A stretch of DNA of 64,000 nucleotides from Branchiostoma floridae (lineage: Eukaryota > Chordata > Leptocardii > Amphioxiformes > Branchiostomatidae), in the NCBI RefSeq assembly GCF_000003815.2, contig NC_049986.1, forward strand, positions 13,944,465 through 14,008,464, given 5' to 3'. How positions within the stretch are numbered: the stretch's first letter is position 1; each line of letters begins with the position of its first letter. The notes beneath the pieces are model-generated. The model had not been told where the DNA came from. It did no database searches and was given only the letters and a program-made list of their open reading frames with translations. Shown here piece by piece: positions 18,158 to 57,837 of the stretch. Position numbers and translations under genes: made by a program.

Positions 18158-19993
18158 TTATCTGCCGAATCTATTGAATATAGAACGTGTGTAGTCTCTT
18201 CGTAATACTGGGTCCCAGCGTTGTCGTTCCGTCTTCATTTGGTCACAGAGTCGTTTATCAACACGGAAAAGTGGACCTTTGCTTGACCTCACTGTATAAT
18301 TTGGATTCCTTACCCTAGAATGGCAAATTCTACTCACAACAGTATTCGTCTTTTTGTAGTTTTGCAACTCCTTCTGAAATCCACTCCCCTCTTTTGTTAT
18401 TTGTCTTATTATTACTTCATTGAAGTGATTGTATAACAAATAATCAGCATAATTATTTTCTATGAAATTTTGTCGCATCTTGTCAGTGATGTTGTATTGG
18501 GTCTTGCCGTAATTCGACTTCTTGGACGGTTTGATGTTGTCGTAAATAATGTCCTCCACCGACCAGCACATGCGCCGTCGAAGAAGGACCATTGATTGGT
18601 CAAAGTGTTCCAGGATCATGACCAATGAGAAGTCTTTCTCGATGTCCCGGATGAAATTTTCAACGGCGGTCTTGTTTTCGTAATCCTTTTTCTGTAGACC
18701 AAGGTCCCTTGACATACAGTTCCGGTTACAAATGTGATCAACAAAATCCTGTCGTGTAGAAGGGCGATAGAGCTTGTCCCATTTCTTTGGATCTTCCAGG
18801 TATGTCAGCACCGGTGGTTTTGAGCGAGTCGCTTCCCTCAAGCCTAGGAAATACCTCTCCATCCTGAAGTATTTGAATGAAGAGCGAAGTCTTGCCAATG
18901 GTTCTCTTAAAATGGCCACATACTTGGTGTTCTTGGGCATCAGATTGTGAAAGCCCGTCCTATTGTAGATGGCGTGGTGAGCGAAGATGTTGGGGTACCC
19001 TCTCGGTAGGAACAGGTAGTCGCGCTCAGTGATGACACCAGCAGTCCCGATGGAAGGGCGGTCCCGTTCCCGGGGCAGCGCGACCGTCAGGAGATGTTTG
19101 TGTCCGTACCTGAGGAAGACTTTCTGCACAGTGGTGGACCCGCACTTGTGCACTTTCATAAATGCCACGTTGGTTTGGGGTTGGCAGGGCGTCGGCGTCC
19201 GCTCTTCTACATGTTTGGAGCTAGAAAACAACAAAATAAGTAACTTTATTGCGCAACAGTTTTACAAGGTACAAAGCATGGCATCTACTGATACATAACT
19301 ACAGTTCTATAAGGCTAATCTATTTAATACAAGGGTGTATAGCATACTGCATGGGGTGAAAATGGTCTTTTATATTTCCTATTTTCCTATGTACATGTAT
19401 ACCAAAATAAAGGACAGCGGTCAGTTTAGTAGGCTCATACGACAGCAAAACGAACGTTATCTAGATGTTTTGTGAGTTATTGTATTGAACTGGAGGCGGA
19501 TGTGTGGGGCACCTTTGTGATATTCCGATAAGGACAGAACGTTTTTGACCTCGTCGTCTTCAAATGCAAAGTTATGGAAGCTTTTAGACAGTGTTCTGAA
19601 CATTTGAATATTTGACGTTTGCAATTCTGTGGTATTACCGATGTTGTATATCACCTAAATACGTTGTACCTTGTTTCAAATGAATAAATATAGGTACACG
19701 AACGAATAAAGGTGTAGGTGTAGGGCTATCGACCAATTGAATACGTGTTACAAAGTCGATCAATGTCTAATTAAAATGATGATACAACATGTAGCTTCAC
19801 TAAAAAATGTAGAATTATTGCATTACCTGTTGGTTGCTTGTGGCGGTAGCCACCCTTTTAGCCTTGGACGAGTTTCACGGGAAGTTGACAGTTTCTCCTG
19901 CTGGCATAATAACACCAGCAAACCGACGACAAGCAGAGAGGTCATGAACAGGTAAAATCTCAAAAGGCTCTGTCGTGTCCACAGACATGTCAT
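18158..19993 (-). CDS. GAL3ST: Galactose-3-O-sulfotransferase-like Golgi enzyme, paralog A
   Basis: Two coding exons on the minus strand. Exon 1 (19993-19827) begins at an ATG and encodes a short basic tail and a signal-anchor helix (FYLFMTSLLVVGLLVLLC, about residues 13-30), ending AACAG|GTAATG in phase 2. Exon 2 (19220-18158) follows TTTTCTAG and supplies the lumenal catalytic domain to the stop. The total is 409 residues, close to the roughly 420-490 usual for the family. It carries the 5'-phosphosulfate-binding loop KVHKCGSTT (residues 78-86) and the 3'-phosphate-binding segment around ILREPLARLRSSFKYF. The family transfers sulfate from PAPS to the 3-OH of galactose on glycolipids or glycoproteins in the Golgi. 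Which acceptor this paralog uses cannot be told. It is a tandem neighbour of a second copy at 22.2-23.8 kb with the same intron phase. An upstream in-frame ATG at about 20077 is not in the track's favour because the helix sits better after the later Met. Confidence 0.88.
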
Positions 19994-22192: not shown

Positions 22193-23824
22193 TTAATGTA
22201 TGGTTTTCTTCATAGCTTTGTATCTTTTGCGAAACATCTTATCCCAAAATTCCCGTTCTTGACGTATCAAGGTGCAGAAATGGTTGTAGATGCGGATTCG
22301 TTGGTTCCACTGACTCGGTCCCAATATAAAACTCTTCGGTCTTGTTACTGTGTGACAGTTTCTACCAATGACGGCGTTTATTCTCTTGAAATGTTGCAGT
22401 TCCGGATCAAAATCTTTTCCTTCTTTCTTAATTATGTCCAAAAGAACCGTTTTGAAATGCTTGTACAGTAAATAATCCGCATAATTTTCCTCAATGAAAT
22501 TTTGTCGTCTGTCTTCTGTGATGACGTCACGTTTTCGGTACCGCGCCTTTCTTGACCAATACAAATTGTCGTAAATGATATCCTCGAAAAGCCAGCACAT
22601 CCGACGCCGTAACAGGATCAATGATTGGTCTAAATGCTCCAGGATCATGACCAATGAGAAGTCTCGTTCAATACCACGGATGAATTTGTCTATGGCGGTT
22701 CTGTTATCAAAATCTTCCTCGGGAAGGCCAAGATCTCTTGACATACAATTCCTAATGCAAATGTGATCTGCAAAATCTCTATCCTTGGGTGGGACATAGA
22801 CACTGTTCCACTTTTTCACATCATCCAGATAAGTGACAACTGGAGAACCTTGTCCTGTTTCATTCATAAGTCCCGGAAAGTATCTTTCCATCCGAAAGTA
22901 GTGGAATGCTGACAACAACCTACTGACAGGCTCTCTGAGCACTGTTATAAACTTAGTGTCTTTCTTCATCAGTTGCAGTAGCTGAGTTCGGTTGTAGGTG
23001 CCGTGGTGGGCGAACAGGTCCCACCGAGCTCCCCCTGGGGACGGTTCGTAGTCGTCACGGGTGATGAGTCCGTCGTGCCCGATGGTGGGGCTGTCACGTC
23101 CCCGGGGGAGCGCGACGTTCAGACGATGGGTGAACCCAAAACGGAGGAAGCTCCTCTGCAGGGTGGTGGAGCCACACTTGTGTACCTTGATGAACGCAAT
23201 GCTTGTGTGGGTGACGCAGTTCGAAGCGCCCGTGGGCCGGACGGTCTGTACAATAGTTCTGTGGGAATGAGTGGTGCTGCCAGATTCTACAGTCGTCCAC
23301 GATCGCGATGTGTTGTCGATGGCGTCATATTTCCCTCTTTGGGTGGTCTGAAGAACTCTGATGAGGGGATCAACAAAAGCAATCTAATTACAGAAATCCC
23401 TGGTACATAATTTTCACAGAAGGAATTTCAATTAGCTAAATGTCTCTCAAAATATCATCATTGATGCATGTTAAGAAATCTAACTTAAAGCGGTACTTTT
23501 CGTCTACGATATGCGAGTGATGGCATCTTCGTGGACTTTATATCTGCATGCAAGGGCAAATACAATACCTGTTTTCTTGCAACCATCGTGTTACCGTCTG
23601 TCTAAATGTGCAAAAACATTGCCATCTTTTATCTATGTAGAACTTCCTTGTGCAAAAACATTGCCATCTTTTATCTATGTAGAGCTTTCTTACTTGCTCG
23701 TGGAAGTTTCCTTGCCGGCCCGCCTTGGTTGGCGCCATGTCACGGACCTCCACTGCAGCTGTACGGAGAAGACGGTGTACGCCAGCAGCAGCACTAGCAC
23801 CACGGGCAGGGAATACTTCCACAT
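22193..23824 (-). CDS. GAL3ST: Galactose-3-O-sulfotransferase-like Golgi enzyme, paralog B
   Basis: Two coding exons on the minus strand. Exon 1 (23824-23694) encodes MWKY and a signal-anchor helix (SLPVVLVLLLAYTVFSV), ending AGCAA|GTAAGA in phase 2. Exon 2 (23357-22193) follows CCCCTCATCAG and restores the frame (AA+A gives Lys44). The total is 431 residues, and the coding length is an exact multiple of three. The PAPS 5'-phosphosulfate loop is KVHKCGSTTLQRSFLRFG (from residue 101), followed by the P-R-G-R-D block, the FAHHGTYNRT segment and the 3'-phosphate site VLREPVSRLLSAFHYF. Much of the catalytic domain matches paralog A almost residue for residue (for example the 18-residue run DFSLVMILEHLDQSLILL against DFSLVMILEHFDQSMVLL). 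This copy has a longer Ser/Thr-rich stem between helix and catalytic domain. It should act in the Golgi lumen on galactose-terminated glycans; the acceptor is unknown. A longer start at 23947 is possible, but it would place 41 residues ahead of the helix. Confidence 0.88.
23607..23690. repeat. Tandem duplication, two 42-bp units
   Basis: TGTGCAAAAACATTGCCATC...CTATGTAGAACTTCCT is followed at 23649 by a near-identical second copy. The pair lies in the intron of sulfotransferase paralog B, starting only a few bases after the exon 1 donor. Confidence 0.9.
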
Positions 23825-27313: not shown

Positions 27314-30300
27314 CTATAGGGGAGCCGGGGTTGGCACACTCATTAGAGGGGACTCCAGGGCAGGGGAGTCATGGGCAGGGCTGGGGGTGTAGGAGTTGAT
27401 TTTGTCAGCCAAGGCACTGAACTGCTTGTGCACTGCCTCCGAGTGCTGAAAAACAAACAACAGAAACAGGGTCAGGAAATAGTCATGAACTGGGAGTACT
27501 GGTGACATTCATGTAACTACATGTACAAAATCCACATCTTTTACTTGCTAGAATATTTTACAGTTGAAAATCATATGGTGCACAACAAAACAAAACAAAG
27601 TAAAGCTTGAATTGTGTAGTTCCACAACTACAGAGGAAAAGACACAGGAATACAGAGGACATAACTTTGACTGTTGACTTGTTTATCATGATACTACTAG
27701 TATACGTTTATACTTCGCCGCAATGGGAAATTTGTAAATGTTACATGAAGTAATACATAAATTTAGATTTAATACTTCCACATTTGTACATCTTATTGGA
27801 CTGTCTTTGCTAACAATATAATGAAATAAAATGAAATGATACCAAAATGAAGTACAGAACATCGAAGTCACCTCTTTTGTAGGTTCGAGTTGTGTCTGAA
27901 GTTTGGCCAGTCTGGAGGTGGGCAGCTTGGGATGGAGGAACCACAGCAATCTCAGCAGATGTCTGCGTACACCTTCTCTCGACGCAACCACCAGGAAAAA
28001 GTTATCAAAAACTGCACTACAGAAATCTTCTGACGAGAACTCCTCCGCCATACTGATCAGTAGGGACACCAGCAGGTGGACAAACGGGTCTTCTAGGGAC
28101 AAGTCATTGTGTGTGTCAGTCATCTTTGGTATGATATGCATGATGGCGTCCTTGTTACGGTGCTTGGTGACGTTGTACAGGTAATAGAGCGTGAGGATGG
28201 CCGCGATGCCGTGCTGGCGGATGGACTTGGCAAAGGTTTTTGGAATCGTGCTGTTTTTGTGGTTCTCTGAGAGTTTTTTGGCCACGAGTCGGACTTGGTC
28301 CTCCACCATGAGTCCCATCAAGGCAGGCAGGAACTTGGTGATGACTTCATTGTCCTGGGGAAACAAAACACAAACAAATGAATCTACATCGGCTACATAT
28401 AGCGGCAAGAAGCAGAACTCCAGTCAGAAGCTCTGAGGAAGTTGTCTGATAGACACTGAAACGTAAGCAAAGTGAGTACATTCTGGTTGTGTAAAAGAAT
28501 TCTTCTATATCCTATATTCTAAAAACGTAACGAAATTATTTGTGGAATCTACTTAACATTTGATTCAAATCCAGAACTTGATACAGAACATCAACAGGTG
28601 TAATAAAACTAATATGGCAGTAAAGGGTTTTAGACTATATGATAGATGGTTGTATTTTTAGCAGTTTCCCTCCAAAGAAACATAACGGCTCCACTTACAG
28701 GCTTGGGTTCCTTGAAGACCTGACTGTCGATCATTTCCCAGGCCCCCAGACCCAGGGACAACATACGCAGCAGCAGGGACAACTCGGGGCTATCCTGTAG
28801 GGTGATGAAAGCACACATCAATAAAGATTGCCATTGCTATTAAAAAAATTACATTTCCTCTGACCAGCTAAATCTCTTCTTCTTCTTCTTCCCGGTAATG
28901 TCCAACTGCCAATGAGTCGGCAATGATCTAAACTGTCTAATGACCAGGGTAGCTTTTAGTAACAGCACACAACAAATCTTCCAAAATAGATACAGACAGT
29001 ATATAGGAACAACTACCAGTATTCAGTTTTGGGTACATGACACAACTACATCCTTACCCTAGGCAGTGACTCCTGTGCCACCAGGTGTTGTAGCACCTTT
29101 AGACTGCTGGAGGCTACAGTGTTCACAGCATACGGGTCACACAGGATCATGGACAGGTCACTGGGGAAAGAGGGGGAGGGTTTAAGGTTAGTGTGTGTAA
29201 TACTTGGTGCTTTGGATGATAATTTGAAGAACTAGTGCCTTGTGAGTATGGTTGATCATGTATTCATTGTGTGGGCTTTCTTTGTTACAGTCAAAATGGA
29301 CAACTCAGGGACCCACAAATCTGGTTTATGTGGATAGGTGGTCATTACAGACAAGATTTGTAATGCTTGTGTCAATGGGGAAAATCATGAAAGGGACAAC
29401 CCAAAATAGTCACATTGGCCAGGTTGTCCTCCTGTAAGATGGTCATTTGTAAAGATTTACTGTACACGTATATCGTTTACCATTCAACAAGGCCTGCATA
29501 CTGTGTTAAATACCCCCTCTAAGTACAGATGGAATCTTTTATCTTACCCCAGCACCTGCTCCTGACCTCGCTTGACCCCATCCAGAAATCCTTGTAGCTC
29601 TCGCGCCCGCTTTGCGTCGATGAAGCGTTCTCGGATACAAGCGTCCAAACACCAGGTGAACTTGTGGCAGGGGTCAACTGAACATATCTCATGGACCTAC
29701 AACAAAATGGAAACATCCACAGGTTGATTACAAATTACAACATGCATAATTACAAATACAACAATTCTATCCTTAGAAGACAAGCTGAAAGTAAGCAATG
29801 GTCAGTATTCTCTGCTATCATATCTATTTTCCTTTGAAGTTTCAAAATAACCTCTATAACCAGTGCATCCATGTTTAAGCAATCCTTGGTTCAATTAAGT
29901 ATAGTAATCCAGTCTTTCACCTATAAACCTTGACCTATGAACTTGTCCGTACCTCTGTATCGTGTAGTGCCATGAGAAGCTCAGCCCTCAGCGTACAGTA
30001 GTGCACGTTCCTAGTACGTAAGAACAGCGTCCGCAGGAACTGTAGCACCATGTCGTACAGCTTCACATCCCTGCCTATCATGTGCATCAGCTTCTGAACT
30101 ACCTGTTAAAAGTAACATCATGAAATTAAATAATAATTCATATGTACATTTTTCCTTTAGATAAGTTTGAAGTTTTAACTGGCACAGCTGTGCCATGCAC
30201 CTAATGTGTTAAGCCACTTAGACAAAGGAGGCTGATGAAACCTCCTTGGTTAAACTCAGTTTTGTGTAATAAACATTTAACATTTAACCAAACTGGAGGT

Positions 30301-31477
30301 AATTGATGGTTTATACATGCACAAGATGTTTGAGCATGAAAGCTTAGTGTTCTCATTCTAACAATTCTTGTAGCATGAGCAATATCATAATGTATTCCAT
30401 GGCAGGCCAAAGCCTAAGAAGCCCAAGTGCTTACCTCTCCCTGTCTACGAGACTTTGGTGCTGGTGTGAAGAAGTTGTTTGAGTTGGCAGGTTCCAGACT
30501 GAACAGCAGTGTGTCCTTCTCCTTAATGTACTGACTCAACAGTGGGGATACCTCGTCACCAAATAAGGACTGAAAAACATGGTACAAACCAGCAATGTTA
30601 TAGTCACCCTTCACATACACCATCTAGTTTAGCATTTGTAAATATAGAATATATATAACAGTTATAAAGTTTAACATCTATCAGTATCATTCTTCTCCAC
30701 CATCACTAGAATGATTTGTGAGACTGAGAGATCCCATTCATTCTAGTGATGCTGAAGATGAGTGATGGAAGTCATTCTTATTCTTAACATTCAGAATTAA
30801 TCTCTGCACCTTATCTTGTAGAAGACTGATTTGCCTTTGAATATTGTTTCCCTGGATGTTTTAACTTCGGGAATGTAACAATCCAAAGGAATGTACGTAT
30901 AAATAGTTTCTTAACACTATATTCCAATTCGACCCATCTTAAGACAACAGGTGATCTCATAGCTTACCTGGTTATTTCTCCAGATCTGTCTCTTGACCTC
31001 CGTGGCGCTCTCCTTGTATAGGTTTGGGTCCTCTAGTAACTTCTTCAGGTAGTCCTCCGGGATGTTGTTGATGTGCTTCATCACGTGCATCACCACCGGG
31101 CGCAGTGTCGGGTTCTTGATCGTCAGGAAACACTTCTCCAGCATGGCCTCCAGCTTGGCTTTACTCTCGGCGTCCGTGTCTCTCTCCGACACCAGACTGG
31201 AGACCTGCTGCATGAGGCGATCCTTCAGCCTCTCCACCATGGACCCGTGGAAGTCAAACCGGTTCACGCTGTGGAGATCCAGTAATGGCAGGGCCGGCTT
31301 CAGGGATGGCAGGAGGATGCTGTTCTCATCCTGGAATTCTTGGATCGCTCGGATCGGATCCGTGCACGTGGAGAGAGCCTCTCGCAACTGTTCGCCACCA
31401 GGGATCCCGAGGTCGGTCAGTCCGGTAGTGGTACTTGCCGCTTGAATCACAGTCTCGGTAGACTTCTTCTCAGCCAT
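27314..31477 (-). CDS. NELFB: Negative elongation factor B (NELF-B, COBRA1)
   Basis: Eight coding exons on the minus strand: 31477-30968, 30569-30435, 30102-29953, 29696-29548, 29160-29058, 28794-28699, 28354-27872 and 27445-27314. All have GT donors and AG acceptors with matching phases (only exons 4 and 5 join in phase 2), giving 585 residues against about 580 for the vertebrate protein. Recognisable conserved blocks, in order, are LLPSLKPALPLLDLH and VMHVMKHI with VKRQIW (exon 1), LFGDEVSPLLSQYIKEK and KSRRQGE (exon 2), YDMVLQFLRTLFLRTRNVHY (exon 3), DPCHKFTWCLDACIRERF (exon 4), MIDSQVFKEPK (exon 6), SEDFCSAVFDNFFL (exon 7) and the end SVPTPAPL. The protein is an all-helical scaffold of the nuclear NELF complex, which holds RNA polymerase II in promoter-proximal pause. 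The start is the only ATG ahead of the conserved block. A MITE begins 16 bp past the stop. A minus-strand AATAAA lies at 26410-26405. Confidence 0.96.
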
Positions 31478-35317: not shown

Positions 35318-38300
35318 ATGGCAGAAGGACCTCCGCGTGGACAGGCCGAGTCGCAGTCCTGGGCAGAGTGGACAGAACAGCTCCAGGCATACGTGGCCTG
35401 GGTCAACTCCCAGCTGAAGAAGCGCGCCGGATGTCGTATCGTGTCGGACCTGCGGAGGGACATGCAGGACGGGGTGGCATTCGCACAGCTGGTGGAGATT
35501 CTGTCAGGTGAGTTCTGCTGTTGTTGATTGCTTGTATTATTGTGTTGTGATGATGTCAAAGTCTACAGACAGATCAGAAGTAATTATTGGGATGACAACT
35601 ACAGCTTTGTCACACAGACCATGTCTCCAAACTGTTATTTGAGTACTGGTAATAGTATATGCTAAAGTGCTTTTACAACTTACAGAATATATAATCAGTG
35701 TTCCATCCTCCTTTATTACATAAGATAATCAGTGTGTAAATTGGAAGGTTCAAAGATCAACAATTAGTAAGGTATGTGAGATAACAGCCCTATCTTTTGT
35801 TTGATTACTCACCGCTATTACTGTAGTAGAAAGGCTCTTTGAAATTGTTGGCTAATTGAATGTAATACAGGCAGTACAGGGGTAATTATTTACAATAAGC
35901 AGAGTATGTCATTATGCCCAAAGAAGCCGGCAAAGAAGCCATGAAATGTTATGTATGTAAATGATTTCTCACAGCGTTCAGTATAATTCTGGGCTTTATC
36001 TACTTATGGTTCCAGTGAGTCACTGAGTACATATCACTATTTGATTTTTAATGATGTGTGCATGTACATGTAGTTTTGTATCTACATGTATATATTCATT
36101 CAAACTGCAAAACAGCATTTGAAAGAAGGTATTCTTTTTTTGGGTACATGTATATGAAAACGTCAACATTTACAGTCAGTAAAGGTTATTTGTCAAGGGA
36201 AATGATTCAGTCTTAATGCTCTACATTATGTAAGTCTGGTTCTTGATAAATGTTGCCTTTTCTCAAGTAAAGTATCTAGCCTGCGACTATGCAGCCCTCC
36301 TGACTGTTGCCTAGTAGCCCTTTCATCTTGCTATGATGACCCAGAATTACTTTAGTGTGCCACCCGCGTTGCTTGGTGTTTTGCAGTCTCTTCCTTCAGA
36401 AAGGAAACAAAGCTAAATGCTCAGACATGTCTTCATTATTTACAGTTCCTTGTGTAATGGTAAAAAGCAGGAGAACAGTTTATAAAGCTAGGACGTTAAC
36501 AGCTATTCATCTCTCAGTTACAATTATTCCTATAGGGGTCTTTGAGAAACTGACAGGTCCCACCCCCTAGGTTGCTATTGTTGGCGGCTTGCTTGTATCA
36601 AAATGTCAGGCATATCAAATGAAACTGCTATCAATGGTCACGTCATGGCTGACAACTCTGCAAGGCGCAGGGAAAGGACGGCATTATGTTCCTGAATGTC
36701 AGGGCTTAGCCTGCTGAATGCTGAATGGGAGGCTACGAATGTGATACCCTTTGTTTGTGGGATAGGTGTGTGTCTGCTTATACTTGTAGGTATTTGTGAG
36801 GGAACACCTTGTGGGGGAGTGGCTGTGAATGTGATACCTGTTGTCTATGGGATACTGGTATGTGTAGGACTGCATGATATGTAAGGTATACTATTAGGTA
36901 TAACAACTGCAACAGTGAGAAGTGCAGTGATTGTGGCAGCCATTGTCAACTGTCGCTTTCATTGTCTGCAACAAGTATGTAAGGAAATATGTGCTGTTAT
37001 GAAAAGGCAGGGTCAAGGACGTGAAGTTTTTGACTTCCAAACTGTTTTGATAGCAAACACAAAGTAAAGATGCATTTTAAAATAAGAATAAGAATGATGC
37101 ATAGCTAAACTAGCTAGCTGAATGTTTGACTCATTTGAATGGTTGGCTAATAACATTTAATATGGTCAGTAAGTCTAAATGATTATTTACAATTGGTGGA
37201 GTGTGTCATTATGCCCAAGGGCAAGAGGTCAAGTGAAGTTCTGCATGTAATGATTTCCGAGAGTTTATAAATTTAGCCTCTTGCAACTTTTATTTCAGGT
37301 TAGTACTCATCTCTACTAGTTGATATTAGATCTAAACATCATTAAATGATCTAATGATGTTTGCATTTGGAACACATTGTATAGTATCATGACAAATAAG
37401 ATAATTGTTGATGTGAAAATTTGCAGGGTTCATGAAAATTTATGGTGAACAGGGTTCTAGTCAGGATTTCATTTTAGCGTAGTGGGAATGGTAGGGAAGG
37501 GAGGTCTTGGCCCTTCCACGGTGAGATTTTGAAAATGTAGAGTTAAAAGTTGGCACTCTGTTAAAGTCACATGTAATTTGAAGGATTTTCTGGTCAGTTT
37601 TAAGGGTCATATCATCATTTTTCATTGTTCAGACATTGATTAGACATTGTTGAACAAGCAAATGATAGCAAAACACCACTACACTAGTTGAAAATTAGCG
37701 TAGTGGCCCTTATTTTAGCGTAGTGGTCACAAATTTTAGCGTAGTGGCCCACTACGCTAAAATGCACTAGCTAGAACCCTGGTGAAGTATCCGGGCTCAA
37801 ATTACATTATTTGGTAAAGATACATACTGGGTAGGTGCAGATGGGAAAAAAGTACTTTATCTGCTTAGTCAAATCTTAAGAGGCAAATGATAAAACTTTT
37901 TTTATAAGGCACTTCAAACTAGGGGGCCCAGACCTATGTACACCACTTCTCTACAAGTCCAAGACTTCAAATTTAAGGAAAAATTATCAGCAATGATAAA
38001 ATGTGCCAAAAAAAAAATGAATCTCAATACACTAAGATCATACACAGACAAACTGGGCGGACCATTTACCATGCAAAAGGCTGCAGAAATAATTCATGTG
38101 TCCTGTTTCCTTGCAGGTGAAACCCTCCCCCATGTGGACTACTCCCCCAAGAGCCTGGGCACCATGAAGCAGAACGTGGAGATCGTCCTACAATTCATGC
38201 AGACCCACCGCATCCGCATGCACCAGACTTCAGCCAAGGATATTGTGGAGGGAAACCTGAAGGCCGTGATGAGACTCATCCTGGCGCTGGCCGCGTACTT

Positions 38301-40098
38301 CAAACCCAGCAGCGTGAAGTCATCAGCCCAGCAGCACTCGCGATCGCAGCAGAGGAACACGTCGGTCGCGGCTGCTGCAGGTGCCGCGGCTGCATTGGCG
38401 GATGCCCGTAAGGACGCGGCAAGTGCCGGGCGGCAGTACCACAGTAGGAGGGAACCACGGTCCCACGGTGATGCCGGACACCACAGGTCTCCTGCCTCCA
38501 CTCCTGACAGACAGCCTCCTAGGTTTGTTCAATTGTTGTTTCTGAATTGGATAGATTCTGGTGTATTGATGCATACATGCTTTGCAAGGTTGTCAACTGG
38601 TAAGAAATTGGTGTATATAAGAAAACAAAAATAAATCATTCTAATACCAGTAATAATGATACATGTATGAAATCCGAAGATAAGTCAGTGTGCAAGGAGG
38701 TTGTCTGACTTGTTTTCATGACAAGAAAGGTTTTCCATTGATTTTTATCCACCTTTAGATTTTGATCTGCCTTTAGCAGATCACCTGACTAATGCACTGT
38801 TCTTTCAACAGATAAAGTACTTTGAATGCTTTTTTTTATTTGACTCTCCTTTGTTCCCCAGGTATGAAGATTTGGTCAGATCCCCTCCTGCTAGCATGTC
38901 CTCTCAGTCAAGGCCCCCTACCCAGGAGCCTGATGTGCTTCCCCGTCGTGACTCCGACAGCACGCAAGGGCTGAGCTCTGGTGATGAGGGTAGCAGAGCC
39001 TCCTGGCAGGAGTTACTGGAACAGCACCTTGACCTTGAGAGTCAGATGGAGGAGGCAAAGGAGACTGTTGTGAAACTGCAGCACTTACTCCTGCAGGGGG
39101 AGGAAGAGGGGGAGGGGGTGAGACAACTGCTGGAGGGGGTGAACCCTGAGGAACAAGTGGTGCTCCTGCAGAGCAGGTTAGATCAGCGAGAGGTGGAATG
39201 TGATCACCTGAGGAAGGACCTCTCCCGTGCCAAACAGGAGAACATGAACCTGCACGGGACGAAGGTGGGGCTTCAGTCACGGCTGACAGAACAGGACACT
39301 TCCCTGCTGGAGATGAAGAACGAGCTGTTGAGGCTCGGTTTCGTCATGGAGCAGTTTGAGGCCGACAAGGCAGAGTTGCAGCGGAAGGTTGACGACAAGA
39401 ACAAGATGTTAACCGACCTGCGCAGACAGCTAACAGAAAAGGACAGACAGTTGGACGAACAGCAAGCCAAGTTGGAGGAGGCAGAACGTAAACTTTCCCA
39501 GGCAAACTCCAGTAAAACGAAGGATACCGTCTCCAGTCCTGTGTACAACGGTGTGCCAGCAGCGCTTCCTCCTGGGGAGGAACTACAGGTGGTACGGGAG
39601 GCGTTACGAGGTTTGCGTTCCTGTTTCCAGGTCAATAACCCACAACATCACACCATAGACACGCTGGAGCAGAGCATAGCAACTCTCATGGAGAGGCTAC
39701 GATTCCTGGAGTCACAGAGACTCATAGCAAGCCAGAAGGAGAGCCTGGCCAACAGGGTGAAACCTGCATCACCCAAATCACAGGACAGTGTGCTGTCGCC
39801 AACGTCACGACAGCGCAGCAATGGTGTGGAAAGTAATGGTTCCACACAAGGGACCAAGATTCTGTACTTCACCGAAAAGACGGTAACTCCCTTCATGACT
39901 TCAATAAGTAAAAAGCTAGGAGACATTACATTAAGAGACTTCAAGGAAGTCTTTGACAGACAAGGGAGCTTTAGATTCCACTTCAAGGCGCTGGACCCAG
40001 AGTTTGGAACAGTGAAGGAGGAGGTGTGCCAGGATGAGGACATCATCCCTGGCTGGGAGGGCAAAATTGTAGCCTGGATAGAGGAGGTCAGGCCATGA
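35318..40098 (+). CDS. DIXDC1: Dixin (CH domain, coiled coil and DIX domain protein)
   Basis: Three coding exons on the plus strand: 35318-35507 (ends TCAG|GTGAGT, phase 1), 38117-38522 (acceptor CTTGCAG, ends CCTAG|GTTTGT, phase 2) and 38862-40098. They join in frame to 610 residues (human about 680). An N-terminal calponin-homology domain spans about residues 10-120 (QLQAYVAWVNSQLKKR, then MHQTSAKDIVEGNLKAVMRL). An Ala-rich and Arg/His-rich linker follows at about 135-195. Long coiled-coil segments cover about 246-495, and the C-terminal DIX domain about 530-610 (TKILYFTEKTVTPFMTSI to WIEEVRP). Dixin binds Dishevelled and Axin through DIX-DIX polymerisation and acts as a positive regulator of canonical Wnt signalling; the CH/coiled-coil part can associate with actin. 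I chose 35318 because its context (ATCATCATGGCA) is good and it lies just ahead of the domain. In-frame ATGs at 35096 and 35171 would add up to 74 residues unlike the family. Intron 1 carries a MITE and an old duplicated segment. Confidence 0.93.
35883..36060. repeat. Dispersed repeat copy 1 in DIXDC1 intron 1
   Basis: A segment starting TAATTATTTACAATAAGCAG with TGTCATTATGCCCAA resembles the segment at about 37182-37370 in the same orientation, over about 180 bp with many differences. It is either an old intra-intron duplication or two copies of one interspersed repeat. Confidence 0.5.
37182..37370. repeat. Dispersed repeat copy 2 in DIXDC1 intron 1
   Basis: It shares GATTATTTACAAT, GTGTCATTATGCCCAA and TAATGATTTC with the copy near 35.9 kb, and ends with a small TAAACATCATTAAATGATCTAATGATGTTT palindrome-like stretch (shown only in part: ACATCATTA and TAATGATGT). 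Confidence 0.5.
37450..37781. mobile_element. hAT-like non-autonomous element in DIXDC1 intron 1
   Basis: The left end CAGGGTTCTAG, then TCAGGATTTC and ATTTTAGCGTAGTGG, pairs with the right end CCACTACGCTAAAAT, then GCACTAG and CTAGAACCCTG, as a 33-36-bp terminal inverted repeat. The 14-15-bp motif ATTTTAGCGTAGTGG recurs at least three more times just inside the right end, as subterminal transposase-binding repeats do in hAT elements. The CAGGG terminus also suits that superfamily. Flanks share GGTGAA (6-7 bp), an imperfect target duplication. There is no transposase frame. Confidence 0.7.
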
Positions 40099-45962: not shown

Positions 45963-46845
45963 TCAGCATGCTTCCATGAACCGCACACGCTGGGCTTTCT
46001 TCTCGGGCTGCGGGTGGCTTCTACTCCGTAAGCGCCCTTTCAGCGACCCCCTGGCCTTTGGCATGTTCTCCTCTGTTAGTCTTGGCCCCGCCAACAGGGC
46101 GCGTTCTTGAAATTTGTGGTTACTATTAAGAGATTTACTGTTTGAAGTGCGTTGGCGGGGTTCCACGCTGGGGCCGCCATTTTCCAGCCCTCCCCCTCTT
46201 GCTAGCTTGAGCTGTGACAATCCACTTACAAGTCTATCATTAGCAGCCTTCAATGCTTCCACTGTCTTCTGTTGCTGTTCTATTATTCTGTCCTTCTCTT
46301 CTATCAGTCTGTCTTTATGCTTGAGTTTTCCTACGATCACCTTCTGCTCCTTCTGAAACTGTCCCTCCAAGAACATCAAGTTAGCCGCAATATCTCTGAG
46401 CTGCTTGTCATTCTCTAGTTTCTGTCTGTGCAGTTTATCCTCCCCTTCCTGCAGTCGTAGCTTCCAGGCCGCGATCAGCTGTTTGGTGTGTTTCTTCTGC
46501 AGGTCCATCTGATGGCGAACCGTCACTTCGCTCTCCTCAGCCGCCTGGAGTTTTTCCTTGAGCGAGGAGACCTCGTCTCTGAGCGCCGTGACTTCCTCCT
46601 GTAACTGCACAGGTAGAGTTGGGGTTAGATCAGCGCTACCTTCCCCCATCTTGTTGGGCAATGGAGGTAAAAGAAATGCCTAGCACGCAAACACGTACGA
46701 ACGTAAACCTTACGGCCTCACGTTACCCCGCCTAACAAAAGGATCAGTCGGCAAAAGGCGTGTACGAGACAAACAGGGCGGTAAAGATTAATCCAGTACA
46801 AAATGTCTGTACACTTACCTGTTCCAGTGATTGAGCGGAAGCCAT
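45963..46845 (-). CDS. Unrecognised small coiled-coil protein
   Basis: Two coding exons on the minus strand. Exon 1 (46845-46819) encodes MASAQSLEQ and ends ACAG|GTAAGT in phase 0. Exon 2 (46604-45963), after ACCTGTGCAG, encodes 213 residues to the stop, so the protein has 222. Residues about 8-155 are a continuous heptad-rich coiled coil (for example LQEEVTALRDEVSSLKEKL, FLEGQFQKEQKVIVGKLKHK and EEKDRIIEQQQKTVEAL). The C-terminal 65 residues are Gly-, Ser- and Arg-rich (GSLKGRLRSRSHPQPEKK) and end in a conserved-looking RVRFMEAC. No enzyme motif, signal peptide or membrane segment is present. A cytoplasmic or centrosomal scaffold role would be a guess. The upstream 46.85-47.1 kb is CpG-rich and probably the promoter. 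Splice sites, phase and a long even coding stretch make the gene credible; the family is not known to me. Confidence 0.8.
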
Positions 46846-50100: not shown

Positions 50101-53100
50101 TCAGTGTTCGTTTACTATAGAACTTCAGATATGTTACTTTTGCTCGGAATTCGCATAGTGTGCCCATCAAGGCGTACTGACCGTGATCTGTTGAAAACTT
50201 TGCGATGTCGGCGTCTATGAAATTGTCTATAGCCACCATCGGACATATTAGTCCTTGTCGATACCATTAAACACATATGACATATACTTTCGTCATGTAC
50301 CAACCTTTGACTCTTGTTGCTATATTACATCAGGCTTGAACTGAATTCATACAATAGAATTGTTCTCGCGAATCTTCAAACGCAATGCAATTATGAGGGT
50401 CGGCTGCTACAGAGGAAGTCGTTGTTTAATATGATTATGTTTTTATTGTTGCAATGATTAGTATTGGGTAATGTTATTACTGCGTATCCATCCCGATAAT
50501 TGCCTGTGAGTGATAGGGACAGGGTAAGGGAAGCTGTATCTGTTAGAAAGTTCGGAAAGCACGATAGAAGATAGGAAAACCGAAAGAAATTGATAAATAA
50601 AGATGGAGAAAGAAACAGAAAGTCAGGAAGAGAATAATAAATGCTTAGTTATTTTGGACGTTTGAAAAGGCCTTGGACAACTAGAAGAACAGATTCCGCT
50701 TTCTAGAAAAGTCCGATCATATTTGACAACATATATTTGGGCATTTGTAGACCACAAAAAGGCTACATTACAAAAGGCGTTTGACAAGAGAAATTGATGT
50801 GTAGTACTACATGCGACCATAATGCTACAGCTTAATGCATTGCCTGGGGTTAAAAGGAATCTTCTTATCAATGAGAGCGGTTTCCGGGGGAATATAGATG
50901 GCACTCGGTGATGCTGCATTCCTACTTCAGTGTCTGGAGACGAGCGCTTTGGGGCTGATTACGGGATGATGGTTAGTCTGGCTGTGAGCAGTGCCGATCA
51001 GGTTACAGGTGTTCAGGTGCGTACGCACTAAGCTGTGCTGTCAGCACTAAAATCGAGGAAAGCGATACGTCCCAAACGTATCTGGTACTGGTTTAGGACT
51101 AGTAATTTTTCAGTGTATCTGTCATGTACTTGTACTCTTTTCCACAATTGACTGATGGCTTGATACAGCGTTTCGATCTTCTTTCTTTATGACATTGAAA
51201 TGTCACGCAATCACGACGTTGTACAGTAGCCACACAGACCATGGTGTACAAACAAACAAACAAACAAACAAACAAACAAAAAGACAGAACCTGTTTATGT
51301 CGACTATAACGCTATCTATCTTTCTTACCTGGCACTAGTTTTGCATGCTGGACAAATGCATCATGATCATAGAGAAAGACTAAACTAGTACATCTTTACC
51401 AGGACCATGAAAAATGGAGGTATTGTTAGGGATGTGCCTGAAGATAAATGTCGATTTTTGGGACCATCTGGTGGTTTTCCATAAAAGGGCTTTAATGTAT
51501 GTTACATGTGTAATTAAAGGCAGGTGGACCATCAACAGATACCAATTATGCAAATAAGGGCCCGATTTGCATGGTTAATGCGCAAATGCAATAATTCTTA
51601 GTGGTAATTGATGGGAATTTCATACTTGTTAGTGGCTGGATTGGCTAGAATTTATGGTCTCAGTTCTAAGTTGTCGTTAGAGCAAGGCACACAGGAATCT
51701 GGGGCAGGCTCGGTAATTTGGACTCTAACGATCTTACACTGAACAGACCCTGTCGTGATGGACGTGGTTTATTCTGAGAATTTCTGACTAATGTCAGCAT
51801 GTCTGTTTAACGCCAACAACCCCGGTCAGCAGTAGTATGAGAAGATTTGTTTAGTTCGGTCATATATAAGGCATCACTTTCATAGTCACACCTCATGTAT
51901 GTTCCCAACAACTCGGAAACACTTAGCGCATCAAGAAATACAGGCTGTATTGTTTCCTGGACTTCTATCAGCGAGATAATTGAAACAATGGCTGATGCAT
52001 ACGTATTATCTCACAAGGAACATCCGCCAGTGTTAGAAACAGAGAAGATACCTGCATGTGTTCCCGTCTCACAGCAACAGGAACATGCTTACGTATACGG
52101 CAATACCATACGGGTCATCAGCATGTCATGCAGAGGTTCCTGATAACACGGAACGACATTTACTACACACCATTGGACACGAAAAATGAAGACACCTTAA
52201 GAGTACTTAAGGGACACTGAAGCGATACCTTAAGGCGCCAGGCGGGCTAATCTATGCTGAGCTATGCGTAGGGATTGTGAGGAATTCCCATTCCATACAT
52301 CAGGTGCATGACCTTGGATAAGACAAAGATGTTGCAGACGTCGGCGTGAAGTTTATCGAACGCAACGGTTTGAGCGAGACAAGCTGCTGCACTCGACTGC
52401 AAACTGACTAAACATACCCTTGGGAATATATTGATTGTTTACACATGAGTTGTCATACCTTTATAACCATCGGCAACTTTTGTATCTGTATGTGTATCTG
52501 TATCTATATAACCGGTATAATCGCCCTTCGGCGTAACACACCAGCTTCACGAGCACGCAGCGCGGCTGCAACTTGCAAAAATACTAAGGTTCTAAAATGA
52601 ATGTATGAATGAATGAATAAAATCATATAGAGAAAGCTTCGATTTGAATAATTTGTACCTGATAATGATTTTACTTACGTCAATCCGAAATCTAATCAGA
52701 AGATTTGGTGAAAAGGTGAAAGCGGAACTTCCGTGCACAACATTGCCCTGAGGGTTTTGGTTCGAAAGGGTCGCTATCTTGTCATCAAAGTAAGAGGCTC
52801 ATCATTTGAATTGAAATACAGATCTAGACTTTGTCAGTCTCATGAAGTCGTAAGGAATATTTAGCAAATGTATAGGCGTTGCTCTTTTAACCTATACATC
52901 GTGGCTTATTTAGTACAACCTTGTTCAAAATGTTATCAAAATAATTAGACTTTCCCAGGGTACAGAACACCTTTACGCATGAGCGACCACAAATGATACA
53001 TGTACTAGTAATTCAATAATTATACCCCAGATAAACCTGTTTTTGCAACGTCGTCATTAGACATGTAAGAGGTCTTGCTGGAATACACGTTTCATATACT

Positions 53101-53123
53101 TTGATAATAACCGCGGCTACAGT
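47121..53123. other. Gene-poor stretch, no firm gene
   Basis: About 6 kb with no secure gene. A minus-strand frame ending at 49022 (MYGKFDMYVGGDSIPARG, later NPDTLYDNGTVVVLRNGT), preceded by TTTCTGTAG at about 49257, looks protein-like but is unassigned. A plus-strand frame at 51895-52143 (ADAYVLSHKEHPPVLETEK) is similar in quality. TCTCCAAGCAGAT at 49706-49718 matches the MITE end at 57.85 kb. GAAAGCGGAACTTCCGTG near 52.72 kb repeats a piece of the downstream kinase gene. Confidence 0.4.
51247..51283. repeat. (AAAC)n microsatellite
   Basis: Eight or so consecutive CAAA units follow GTGTA. It is a simple tetranucleotide repeat. Confidence 0.9.
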
Positions 53124-56018
53124 ATGTCAGTTAACTACTTGCGCCGACTCCTGCTTCTGCTCGGGGTTTACAGTCTACCGTGTCCGGCCAGTGAAGACCG
53201 CCGCAGCGTTTCTGTGCCTGAAAATGCCAAGCCTGGGACAGAAGTCCTCAGTTTGCTGGGGATAGAGAAAGCGGAACTTCCGTGTGTGATCGTGGAGGGA
53301 GATCCGTACCGTCGGTTCTACCTGAGTACGAACTGTACAATTGTGGTCGGCAGGGCGCTAGACTGGTCAGTACAATCAGAGTATCTTCTCAAGATTCGTG
53401 TTGGACAGTTTAAATATCCAAGTCACCGTGTCGTCAGCATTCACGTACACGTGAAAAACGTTCCAGGCTACCCTCCTGTGTATAACGACATGTGTGAAAT
53501 ACCGACCAGAGCTTTGGGGGACTCAGATGAATTTCTGTTAAGTTTAAGCATAAGTGCCCAGGTTGAGACGACTGTCGGGGATGTTCTTTTCGCTGAAAGG
53601 ACCTTTTCAAGACCTCTAGATCATTGGAACATGGATAATCCTACTTTTGTAATCAACATGGACAACAACTGCCAGCTTCACATAGCACTGGAAGTCCGTG
53701 GTCTAACCGACACCGCAGTCGCAGCAGAATTGTCACTGGCGAAACATCACGATCAGGATACATTTAAAGTTTCATGCTATGCTGAGTCTAACCATACATC
53801 TGAGCTCTTCATTGAGCTCTATCATGATGACGACGATGACAAAGATAAACTGCATCACCTAAAACAATACGTTCCGCAGGTTATGGCGAAGCTTAAGAAA
53901 GCACGTTTGATCTACTTAGTCTCCTTTGCATTTCCAACCAAAACCGCGACGAGATATAAATGTGACTTCCCGTCGTTGCGAAATCCAGTCAGATTCCGTA
54001 AACACCGTGACTCGATCGGTGCGATCAAAAATGTTGAGGCGGCAGCTGTGGTTTTGGCTCCAATCGGCTGCCCTCCGAGTAGATACGGGTTTCTTTGCGA
54101 CAAGAGCTGCATCTGTGAGAACGGAGCCCGTTGTCATGGTTTCAATGGTGCCTGTAAATGTACACACGGATGGCAAGGTGTGGCTTGTGACATCCCTAAA
54201 GCTGGTGTTTCGGCAACAACGACACCTAGCGACCCTGCTGATATCTACATCTCCACAAATGTCACCATTCACTGCAAGACCCATCACCTAAATGTCACAA
54301 CGTTAACACTTCGACTTCCAAACGGATCTGAGATTGTAAGCAACGTTACTACTCAACTAGACCAAACTGTCTCTAACATAGAATCTGAAGACAAAGGTCC
54401 CTATATCTGCCAGGTGCTAGACACCCATGGAAACGTTTTCAATGTGACAATTGTACTTGACATTGCCAAGTGCCCACCAAATCGAAAAGGCGACCTCTGT
54501 GATGAAACGTGTGATTGTCTCCATGGTGCGCCCTGTGACTGGCAGGCCGGCTGCGTCTGTCCGCCGGGGTGGACAGGAACCAGGTGTCAGACGACATGTC
54601 CGGACGGCACGCATGGCGAACGGTGCACGAAGAAGTGCTGCTGCCAAAACGGCGCTAGCTGTACCCCCAGCGATGGTATGTGTACATGCAAAGCTGGCTG
54701 GTACGGATCGGACTGTACCGTACCATGTCCGAGATACAGGTATGGCTTGAAATGTCAGGAGACCTGTACCTGTAAAAACAACGCCACCTGTGACAACGTC
54801 GACGGCAGCTGCACCTGTGCAGTGCCTTGGAAAGGGACGGACTGTGGCGAACTCCACGCATCTTCCCAACAGGGTGCAGTTCAACAGGCAAATGGATGGA
54901 AACTTCTTGTCGAAATCCTTGTTCCATTAGCCTCCGTGATTGTCCTGGTTGTTTGTGTAGCGACCATACTTTACAAAAAGCGCCTCCTGTGTGGCGTTGC
55001 CGCCGGTGCAGATGGGGAGACTGAAGCTCTGCTGGAGTTACAACAAGTGGAGGCTGGCCTGACACAGACCGTCCAACCGGGCTGGCTCAGCCGTTGGGAG
55101 ACGACGAGTCGTCATCTGTCTCTTGGTCACCTGGTAGGAATGGGAATGTTCGGACACGTCATACAGGCCAAGCTCAAGACACCTGCCGGTGAAATCACTG
55201 TAGCTGCCAAGGCGGTTCGTAGAAAAGACACACAGTGCTACCGAAACTTCTACAGGGAAGCGGCCATCTTGGTAGCTATACATGAGGACCAAAATCACGA
55301 GAACCTTCGCTCCAATATCATTCAATTGTTGGGGTTGGTGAACGAAACGTCGCAGAAATATATCCTCATGGAATACGCTTCTAAAGGAAATCTCTTACTT
55401 CTGTTGCGACAAGCGCGAAGGCAAAACGGCACCATATTCTTGCCATACAATCTCCGCTATGCTGTACACATATCCCGAGCTTTGCAGGAGCTCCAACGCC
55501 TGGCTCTCACTCACTGTGACGTGGCCGCTCGGAACGTCCTCATCACGGCTGACGATGTGGCCAAGTTGGCCGACTTTGGGCTTGCGCGAGATGTGTACGC
55601 CACTGTGCAGTATGTCACTGGCCACAAGAGAGAGCGTGCTAAGCGAGAAAACCTAGATGATGAAGTTTTCCCGTTAAACTGGATGTCTTTGGAGTCTTTA
55701 GAGACAGGCGAGTACACCTGTCAGAGTGACGTCTGGTCCTTTGGTGTGCTGCTGTGGGAGATCGCCACGCTGGGACGTGAACCGCGTTACGATGGCAACA
55801 ACAACCCGAGCTGCCTCCAGCTGGCACGGACACTCCGGAGGGGAGTCCGGCTGAGACGGCCTCCGGAATGTTCCGGAGAGATGTATGACGTCATGAGCTC
55901 GTGTTGGCAGGAACAGCCATCAGAAAGACCGGATCCGGATGTATTGGAGAAAAGACTACTGCAAGTGCGAAATACGATGATTCCTTGCTTATCTATTGAG
56001 AGGGAAACAACAGTGTAG
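53124..56018 (+). CDS. Intronless receptor tyrosine kinase with cadherin-like, EGF and Ig modules
   Basis: A 964-codon uninterrupted frame whose ATG is the first after an in-frame TAG (53058). Order of parts: signal peptide (residues 1-22, RRLLLLLGVYSLPCPA); cadherin-like segment about 28-120 (SVPENAKPGTEVLSLLG, DWSVQSEYLLKIRV, then VKNVPGYPPVY); a divergent region with an acidic patch (DDDDDKDK at 235-242); an eight-Cys EGF module 316-355; an Ig-like domain about 361-448 (C384, C429, DKGPYIC); three more eight-Cys EGF modules 450-488, 492-531 and 535-574; a membrane helix about 594-617; and a tyrosine kinase domain about 664-947. Catalytic residues are present: loop GMGMFG 672-677, K696, E712, D799, N804 and DFG 817-819. 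The HRD Arg is Cys (HCDVAARN), the APE motif is SLE, and the activation segment is long. The tail is short and ends ETTV. EGF/Ig content recalls Tie receptors, but this order with a cadherin-like start matches no receptor I can name. It should be a plasma-membrane receptor; the ligand is unknown. Confidence 0.93.
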   Translation: MSVNYLRRLLLLLGVYSLPCPASEDRRSVSVPENAKPGTEVLSLLGIEKAELPCVIVEGDPYRRFYLSTNCTIVVGRALDWSVQSEYLLKIRVGQFKYPSHRVVSIHVHVKNVPGYPPVYNDMCEIPTRALGDSDEFLLSLSISAQVETTVGDVLFAERTFSRPLDHWNMDNPTFVINMDNNCQLHIALEVRGLTDTAVAAELSLAKHHDQDTFKVSCYAESNHTSELFIELYHDDDDDKDKLHHLKQYVPQVMAKLKKARLIYLVSFAFPTKTATRYKCDFPSLRNPVRFRKHRDSIGAIKNVEAAAVVLAPIGCPPSRYGFLCDKSCICENGARCHGFNGACKCTHGWQGVACDIPKAGVSATTTPSDPADIYISTNVTIHCKTHHLNVTTLTLRLPNGSEIVSNVTTQLDQTVSNIESEDKGPYICQVLDTHGNVFNVTIVLDIAKCPPNRKGDLCDETCDCLHGAPCDWQAGCVCPPGWTGTRCQTTCPDGTHGERCTKKCCCQNGASCTPSDGMCTCKAGWYGSDCTVPCPRYRYGLKCQETCTCKNNATCDNVDGSCTCAVPWKGTDCGELHASSQQGAVQQANGWKLLVEILVPLASVIVLVVCVATILYKKRLLCGVAAGADGETEALLELQQVEAGLTQTVQPGWLSRWETTSRHLSLGHLVGMGMFGHVIQAKLKTPAGEITVAAKAVRRKDTQCYRNFYREAAILVAIHEDQNHENLRSNIIQLLGLVNETSQKYILMEYASKGNLLLLLRQARRQNGTIFLPYNLRYAVHISRALQELQRLALTHCDVAARNVLITADDVAKLADFGLARDVYATVQYVTGHKRERAKRENLDDEVFPLNWMSLESLETGEYTCQSDVWSFGVLLWEIATLGREPRYDGNNNPSCLQLARTLRRGVRLRRPPECSGEMYDVMSSCWQEQPSERPDPDVLEKRLLQVRNTMIPCLSIERETTV

Positions 56019-56273
56019 ACCGCGGCACCCCTGAGGTGTCGCCAAAAGATACAAACCGAATACCATCCCAGTAACGCAGACTGCAACATTGGATGTAGGA
56101 AGTAAAATACGTAAGAAACGATATGTAAATGTTGATATCATTTCCGTCTCCATTTATTATGTTCATGTACACCCAAAATAACGCAGCTTGTTGAAGTTTT
56201 TCGTTGGGTAAGCCTCAAAGCAATGCATAGTCACTCACGCACACACAAACACACGCACACACAAACACACACA

Positions 56274-56322
<49 letters not shown>

Positions 56323-57837
56323 GCACACACATTCACATACATTCACATACACACACTTTGATACACAAACACATGCGATGACCACCTCTCATCTTCAAAC
56401 ACTGGTACTCAATGTGCTCAAAGAAAGCATAGAGGACTTCGCACCCTCGAGACAGTTTCGAGCACATAACCGTATTATCAATCATACTTGACTTGACCCA
56501 AGAAGGACAAACCTTTGTGCCTTACCTTGAGGAAAGTCCTTCTCCTCCCCAGCCACTCGTACGTGAAGTTTGTCTTGAAAGGTAACCGTGATGGACTACT
56601 GTTTCCCTAGGAGTAACGGCTGCAGTTCAGTTTCAACTTATGTTTGTCCGCACAGTTCAAAGTAAACACATGACATGTAAAGCTATAAAACGGTTAACAC
56701 AATGGTAGAACGTCGGGGGGTTAGTTACACAGCTAGTAACAAAACTATACGTCTAACGTGAGCTTGATTTATGTCGGTGCGCATGCAGACATGAAATGAA
56801 AATAAAAAGTGAACCTCATGCCTTTGTCTAAATGATTTATTGTTGGCGCAATTTGATGTAAGAAGACACCATTATCAAGAGATACAAAACATTACGTATT
56901 TCGTAAAAATAGACAATGATTGCCCTTAGCTTTAGTAATATCGTAGGCCTGTTGTTGGAACAGTTTGCTAAGTATAAATTCATATTGCCTTCAGAATGAT
57001 ACAGAGGACGTAAAGACTTACGATAGGTCAAGCACGGCATGATAGTCCTAATATAAGCCTGGTCTCAGTGGTGCTCTGATGTTTTGTGTGGTGAAACAAA
57101 TTATACATCTCAGATGACGCGCGTGTATACCTAGATTTCCTCCGTAAATCTACGTAGATGTTCAGTGTAAGCATCCCTTAATCCTCAGCAAAAACCCCGC
57201 TCTATTATCATTGTTTCGCCATGCTGCTGTGTAACGTGTTATACGTAGGTGTTCCGTAATCACAGCCCGTTCCGCGGCTTGGCTCTGTTGACGGATATGT
57301 CCGTACGTATCAAGCCTGACCGCCGTCTGTAATCACTGCGTGGGTAGGAGGTGGGCGAATCGTGCGACTTGCTGACTACACGAATGTCCCAACTGCGCAC
57401 TTTGTTCGTGTATTGCGTGTTGATTTGAGCGACCCAGTGTGGGATTTGAGGTTTCGTTCGAAGGGGAACACGTCAATTTCTGCGTCAGGGAACGCCCACT
57501 GCGAGTCGTCTTCGCACGCGAGGTACTTCTGATGTTTTCTTTGTGGGCTGCATCTAGGTAACGTTACAGATTGTGGGATGAAATTGAAGCTACGCTAAAC
57601 TACAGAAGATAGGATTCTTTAGACATTACTTATTCCATGCATCACACGTTTCTTTTCTCTATTCAATTATTCTTGGTTATACGCCGCTGCCACTGATAAC
57701 ACAATTACAGGGTTGCCCGTGAGGACCTTCGTGTTCGTGAATCTTTTCTAAAGGCTAGCCTTGCAAGATGTACCTTGAATTCATGATATCGAACAGACTA
57801 TTCCCTCAATGTCAACATGGTTAGCCTCAAACACCAG
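56019..57837. other. 3' flank of the kinase gene, non-coding
   Basis: No gene. AATAAA at 56801-56806 could end the kinase transcript. It contains a (CA)n tract. The 57.2-57.5 kb part is CpG-richer but without an identifiable exon. Confidence 0.4.
56240..56350. repeat. (CA)n microsatellite
   Basis: A near-continuous run of CA dinucleotides (about 56240-56320), bordered by CACACAAACACACG and ACATTCACATACA interruptions. The purest part is about 40 bp. Confidence 0.92.

Follow-up and report, generated by a model that had tools for sequence, protein, structure and literature searches.

A lancelet receptor tyrosine kinase from a large, mostly intronless gene family with a hypervariable four-cysteine domain

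We analyzed a 64,000-nucleotide stretch of the genome of the lancelet Branchiostoma floridae (contig NC_049986.1, positions 13,944,465 to 14,008,464; hereafter the window, numbered from its first nucleotide), focusing on a receptor tyrosine kinase gene. Positions 53124-56018 of the forward strand form one continuous open frame of 964 amino acids (aa), recognized as a single gene from its sequence and from full-length matches elsewhere in the genome. The frame is bracketed by an in-frame stop at 53058 upstream and an AATAAA polyadenylation signal at 56801 downstream, and tblastn finds no second copy of the gene within the window. The genome holds roughly a hundred mostly intronless receptor kinases, this gene among them, that follow one plan: a degenerate cadherin domain, a hypervariable four-cysteine domain, an EGF-like domain, an Ig domain, two or three further EGF-like domains, a membrane helix, a kinase domain and often a PDZ-type tail.

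In the window gene, all parts of which lie on the forward strand, a signal peptide (aa 1-23, 53124-53192), judged by eye from its hydrophobic core LLLLLGVYSL, precedes the cadherin domain (aa 24-122, 53193-53489), which was placed by Pfam, PDB profile search and alignment. The four-cysteine domain follows (aa 123-315, 53490-54068; C124, C183, C218 and C280), delimited by alignment and by distances among paralogues. Next come EGF1 (aa 316-357, 54069-54194), the Ig domain identified by Pfam (aa 358-449, 54195-54470; C384 and C429), EGF2-4 (aa 450-576, 54471-54851) and, at the hydropathy maximum, a transmembrane helix spanning about aa 594-616 (54903-54971). The EGF-like domains were assigned by Pfam and cysteine spacing, with a PDB search in addition for EGF2-4. 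All four have eight cysteines in the spacing C-x8-C-x3-C-x1-C-x5-C-x5/6-C-x1-C-x8-C, and EGF3 carries one additional cysteine, C506. When the whole protein is scanned with Pfam, kinase and ig both exceed their cut-offs. When it is scanned in pieces, PK_Tyr_Ser-Thr reaches 2e-60, Ig_2 (27.4 bits) and ig (24.3 bits) are above cut-off, and EGF-type families top each of the four EGF pieces, each below its own cut-off. A first-pass annotation of this sequence had read the order as cadherin-like, divergent region, EGF, Ig, three EGFs, helix and kinase, with EGF modules of the eight-cysteine type; the open frame, the Pfam pieces and the cysteine list bear out both statements.

The tyrosine kinase domain (aa 661-950, 55104-55973) retains K696, E712, D799, N804 and D817. 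Thus, the gene has the features of a receptor tyrosine kinase: a signal peptide (by eye), one membrane helix and a kinase with the catalytic K, E, D and N and the DFG motif. By alignment with other kinases, the catalytic loop reads HCD instead of HRD (aa 797-799, 55512-55520), and eleven extra residues (aa 832-842, 55617-55649) follow Y825 and Y830 in the activation loop. The C-terminal motif ETTV (56004-56015) is presumably of the class I PDZ-ligand type, and T at position -2 with a hydrophobic last residue is found in 28 of 36 paralogues (counted by eye). An exact 18-nucleotide repeat (52718-52735 and 53267-53284) places a copy of the conserved KAELPC-coding piece 549 nucleotides upstream of its position in the gene; this copy is perhaps a small relic. 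Directly downstream of the gene lies a CA-rich microsatellite (56206-56391).

The cadherin-like nature of the N-terminus, also claimed in the first-pass annotation, is weak for the window gene alone and firm once a profile of its relatives is used. Alone, the gene scores 19.2 bits against Pfam Cadherin (E 0.0016), under the cut-off of 28.8, and its N-terminus matches protocadherins weakly in the PDB (5 of 6 matches, best E 0.051). A 34-row family profile matches 128 PDB sequences, with CELSR1 best at E 5.5e-57 over several domains and at E 5.4e-9 for its best single domain. Cadherin-family names stand on 57 of the best 60 of these 128 rows, the other three being 'MCG133388' isoforms. Pfam Cadherin is found at E<=0.01 in 24 of 34 family members (best 1.9e-8). 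Of the presumed cadherin motifs, the VPEN and LD positions are kept across the family, and D-V-x-G-Y-P-P (NVPGYPP in the window gene) stands in place of the calcium-binding DxNDNxP. Because of this replacement, calcium-dependent cadherin adhesion by the family appears doubtful.

The size of the family emerges from searches of the window's own genome (513 Mb, 431 contigs). The full window protein has at least 53 matches, with 47 of 683 candidates scored. The 46 loci examined comprise all of the full-protein matches except the window's own; in 36 of them a single frame extends over 880 aa or more, and all four eight-cysteine EGF patterns are matched in 32 of these 36. With the window kinase domain as query (131 of 429 candidates scored), there are at least 134 matches, of which 118 were counted. 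The 16 excluded rows comprise ten at 45-73% identity that are 45-123 residues long, three at 34-36%, and three at 40-43%, one of them of 177 residues in an 872-aa frame (C1:380713). Kinase identity is at least 44% in 116 of the 118 counted places, and 36-37% in the other two (contig C16). Among these 116 family-level places, which are places rather than genes (a broken gene at C7:24.418 Mb makes two rows, and a C6 copy is among the excluded pieces), 105 match 270 or more of the 300 kinase residues. Of these near-full-length kinases, 78, the window gene among them, sit in frames that reach 830 aa or more; 74 of the frames, including that of the window gene, reach 880 aa or more, and two of the 74 have a stop inside the match (C18:18505315, C5:776773). 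We call these genes intronless on the basis of open-frame length, which allows for introns in untranslated parts. The family is spread over 18 contigs, and 82 of the 116 places fall into 19 clusters (spacing <60 kb).

Among the 116 places, the domain plan was traced through the 36 long loci plus eight others. In those eight (L058, L060-L062, L063-L066; the 5' end is cut off in L058 and L060-L062), the order cadherin, four-cysteine domain, EGF, Ig, EGFs, helix and kinase recurs, with three EGFs after the Ig domain in L063, L065 and L066. Only two are present in L058, L060-L062 and L064, so EGF number varies within the family. The earlier suggestion that the gene belongs to a receptor family with a module order of its own is therefore supported, the family being far larger than one gene, and the window gene is very likely a member of such an expanded family with a fixed plan. 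By way of contrast, the kinase of the Trk-like L057, which joins TRKA (100/96), is split over separate frames. A single-frame receptor is not unique to this family: in the Cad96Ca-like L056, too, a single frame encodes an Ig-like ectodomain, a helix and a kinase. A scan of viral contigs confirmed no kinase relatives.

The catalytic residues are retained by 95% or more of the 36 paralogues compared. At the middle position of HRD, 20 of them have R, the other 16 have G, and the window gene has C. Across 45 kinases it is R in 27, G in 17 and C in the window gene only; on a 45-row tree built with this residue masked, these states need at least 3 changes. The HGD kinases (L009, L036-L049, L051 and L066; 17 of 45) fall mostly on one non-RD branch.

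The part that sets the paralogues apart is the first-pass annotation's divergent region, a property visible only beyond the window. Averaged over all pairs of 37 long members, sequence identity is highest in EGF1 (79%), the most conserved part of the ectodomain. EGF2-4 follow at 68%, the kinase at 67%, the cadherin domain at 55% and Ig at 48%, and the halves of the middle domain are lowest, at 29% for the first and 25% for the second. The window gene and its five nearest relatives are likewise least similar in the middle domain (37-42% identity, compared with 60-68% in the cadherin domain and 72-76% in kinase aa 661-770). C124, C183, C218 and C280 are invariant in 33 of 33 aligned rows. Pfam scans of 33 middle domains gave no family matching more than one member at E<=1, and the middle-domain profile found no family in the PDB; its only matches at E<=10, Thy-1 (E 0.049) and beta-2-microglobulin (0.92), are both weak and offer an Ig-like lead. 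Neither a second cadherin domain nor a copy of the family's own Ig domain is supported by hhalign (probability <1% for each).

Closely related genes show that the middle domain has a history unlike that of its flanks. We considered 107 close pairs (median regional nucleotide distance <0.12, pairs with too few bases per region skipped) and called a region discordant if its distance exceeded 0.2 and three times the pair median. By this measure, the middle domain is discordant in 79 of the 107 pairs; cadherin, EGF1, Ig, EGF2-4 and kinase C-lobe in none; the transmembrane/juxtamembrane region in 2; and the kinase N-lobe in 10. When the length limits are relaxed, 84 pairs qualify, drawn from 26 genes in two array groups; a scan across the borders in these pairs shows the mean distance rising from 0.03 at aa 108-119, via 0.13, to 0.28-0.57 over aa 132-311, and falling back to 0.02-0.05 at aa 324-359. 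The borders of divergence, at about aa 120-132 and 312, thus match the domain borders. Middle distance exceeds flank distance in 54 of 55 pairs in the C12 array and in 83 of 91 in the C7/C8/C15 group. A single gene illustrates the pattern: the cadherin domain of L026 differs from that of L019 by 0.004 per nucleotide and its middle domain by 0.50, and the same middle domain lies 0.037 from that of L012. Silent sites take part as well, with a fourfold-site difference of 0.371 in the middle domain versus 0.076-0.174 elsewhere. Since the divergence follows domain borders and includes silent sites, these genes appear to share flanks while carrying different middle cassettes. Faster amino-acid change alone would leave silent sites unmoved, and cassette exchange, or homogenization of the flanks by gene conversion, best accounts for the pattern.

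On these grounds, we propose that the family consists of receptor kinases with a diversified recognition head in which the middle domain is the recognition cassette, a reading to which we assign a probability of about 0.6. The cadherin and middle domains would form the head, and EGF-Ig-EGF a stalk and dimerization part, by analogy with Tie receptors. When a ligand or partner is bound, the kinases would be drawn close enough to phosphorylate each other in trans at Y825/Y830. Exchange among paralogues, by recombination or gene conversion, could equip constant signalling parts with different heads, and the whole set might recognize many partners, be they self/non-self, microbes, gametes or cell-type labels. 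More tentatively, and at odds clearly below even, this may be a germline-encoded system of self/non-self or microbe recognition in a chordate, with about a hundred kinases, an exchanged four-cysteine cassette and direct tyrosine phosphorylation. As a rule, receptor tyrosine kinases are few in number, evolve slowly and serve fixed ligands. If the proposal is right, about a hundred kinases with one exchangeable variable domain, in a lancelet near the base of the vertebrates, would represent a different use of this receptor class. A role for a cadherin/Ig/EGF kinase family in immunity, allorecognition or gamete recognition would become open to test, and the many natural domain swaps could be used to map what the head binds.

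Several observations weigh against this proposal. Variation extends beyond the middle domain: smaller rises in distance occur within Ig (to 0.21, at aa 396) and around the helix (to 0.17), and the kinase N-lobe of L026 is as divergent as a swapped cassette (0.333 per nucleotide to L011), so other parts of the gene may be exchanged too. Pairs within arrays, the 107 close pairs included, are not independent, and their counts describe a pattern rather than provide a statistical test. The ratio of nonsynonymous to synonymous substitution rates (dN/dS; medians over 206-232 pairs with dS<1) is 0.27 for the kinase, 0.11 for EGF1, 0.38 for cadherin and Ig, 0.35 for EGF2-4 and 0.44 for the middle domain. 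The family overall is under purifying selection, and positive selection on the middle domain was not found by this ratio, which stays below 1 at the median and reaches 1.0 at most in a single pair. Nor is the middle domain outstanding in this respect, because the highest values for individual close pairs are 2.69 (cadherin), 1.65 (Ig) and 1.4 (EGF2-4). Finally, the window gene's own kinase may be altered, given N852 where 35 of 36 paralogues have K, HCD for HRD, and an activation-loop insert that is long relative to both human kinases and most aligned paralogues.

The middle domain could instead be a loosely constrained spacer. Under such neutral birth and death, gene conversion would keep the flanks alike and there would be no diversified recognition. 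This account fits the middle-domain dN/dS, which is below 1 and near that of other ectodomain parts, EGF1 apart (0.44 versus 0.35-0.38), as well as the several family loci that are fragments, with stops or missing parts. We nevertheless consider it unlikely, as the four invariant cysteines point to a folded domain, and the jump at silent sites points to exchanged or anciently distinct cassettes, not local drift. Could the assembly be at fault, with unmerged haplotypes inflating the number of copies or misassembled arrays mimicking cassette swaps? C12:17735836 and C12:22892725, 5 Mb apart, have equal score, identity and frame length, indicative of a recent or assembly duplication, and contigs C146 and C200 hold family members. 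But the pattern is present in 26 genes of two array groups and copies lie on 18 contigs, while many cassettes differ by 0.25-0.5 per nucleotide, which we judge far above allelic levels. An artefact on this scale is very improbable.

It is also conceivable that these are ordinary growth-factor receptors, a domain-shuffled offshoot of Tie with few conserved ligands that has expanded in copy number only. The first-pass annotation had raised a domain-shuffled Tie relative, and such a link may exist. Tie2 is the best PDB match to the Ig plus three-EGF block, collinear throughout (E 6e-19; profile 6.7e-28). Most of that score comes from the EGFs, with the EGF-only structure 6u11 close behind in the profile search (2e-23), and hence the match alone is no proof of common descent. 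In a midpoint-rooted kinase tree, in which TIE2 is the only verified sequence among the human and fly references, the 19 family rows form one clade (100/100) on a long stem (1.04). This clade adjoins Tie, Cad96Ca, RET, FGFR, VEGFR2 and KIT (86/88) and falls outside Tie in the free tree. Grouping the family with Tie by force is the least bad of the alternatives (delta log-likelihood 2.4, p 0.315), ahead of RET (10.0, p 0.143) and of Cad96Ca plus C16 (p 0.061, with an unverified Cad96Ca sequence). The grouping with FGFR1 is weakly rejected (p 0.025, one of four such tests), and FGFR is among the top single-sequence matches to the window kinase. L055 and L056 (C16:16.61-16.62 Mb), the genome's best matches to the human TIE2 kinase, join the Cad96Ca reference with 99/98 support; part of L055 reads N. 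A Tie offshoot with few ligands would leave the cassette pattern unexplained, and Pfam scans detect no FnIII in the window protein, where EGF4 ends at about aa 574-576 and the helix starts at about aa 594. We regard this explanation as improbable, though less so than an assembly artefact, and favor the diversified recognition head.

Most family members are uninterrupted, but L034, L050, L031 and L035 each contain a single phase-0 GT-AG intron of 336-451 nucleotides at one juxtamembrane site, corresponding to Q641/V642 of the window gene (55046-55047, forward strand), where the frame continues without a break. In a tree for which L031 and L035 were cut inside the kinase, the uninterrupted window gene (99/97) and L009 (96/96) are nested among intron-bearing sisters. 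A single gain and two exact losses would account for this simply. Parallel gain is possible, because only the introns of L031 and L035 can be aligned (84% identical). L009 sits in a tandem array beside two intron-bearing sisters, which favors loss in place. In the window gene, from which a single intron is missing, a retrocopy and a loss in place would look the same; repeats sought over 52600-57400 comprised the CA microsatellite and short matches, with no clear insertion repeats. A shared intron absent from nested sisters is a possible case for the study of intron gain and loss.

Elsewhere in the window, Pfam identifies a galactose-3-O-sulfotransferase-like open frame (18161-19231, reverse strand; PF06990) and a partial one (22196-22969, reverse; PF06990), two frames matching COBRA1 (27689-31477, reverse; PF06209) that are probably exons of a NELF-B gene, frames with a CH domain and a DIX domain (37936-40095, forward) that we take to be similar to Dixin/DIXDC1, and a frame similar to the DAB2IP C-terminal domain (45966-46661, reverse; PF12004).

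The family may be partly known already. D'Aniello et al. in 2008 reportedly counted 118 tyrosine kinases in amphioxus, including an 'EXTK' expansion near TIE, FGFR, PDGFR and RET; the present family alone has 105 long kinase matches. Among the matches listed in our literature search, we identified no description of the family. PMC8662651, which refers to D'Aniello et al. 2008, names Ret as the family whose ectodomains are of the cadherin type. PMC12373286 gives protein tyrosine kinase activity among the functions of dispensable genes common to two lancelet species, leaving the kinases unnamed, and PMC4967905 and PMC6071037 discuss Ryk and errors in lancelet gene prediction. The open frames reported here are independent of gene models.

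Like the window gene, Tie1 and Tie2 have an Ig domain followed directly by three eight-cysteine EGFs, a helix and a tyrosine kinase. They differ in that the window gene begins with a cadherin domain, a four-cysteine domain and an EGF, and the kinases are about 36% identical. Tie receptors, which bind angiopoietins, have further Ig domains and FnIII repeats and lack a cadherin domain. RET shares with the window gene cadherin homology in the ectodomain and activation-loop tyrosines in the same DVY....YV setting, and the window kinase is 38% identical to the RET reference sequence. RET has several cadherin-like domains and a cysteine-rich domain and lacks an EGF/Ig string, whereas the window gene has one cadherin domain and a middle domain that is not similar to it by hhalign. 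Cad96Ca/Stitcher, to whose reference sequence the window kinase is 32% identical, is likewise a cadherin-bearing receptor tyrosine kinase, without the EGF/Ig string. Finally, a diversified recognition part on a constant frame is known from Dscam1, sponge receptor kinases and SpTrf. The lancelet family, whose recognition function is putative, differs from these systems in that its diversity lies in many separate kinase genes, each with one variable cassette.

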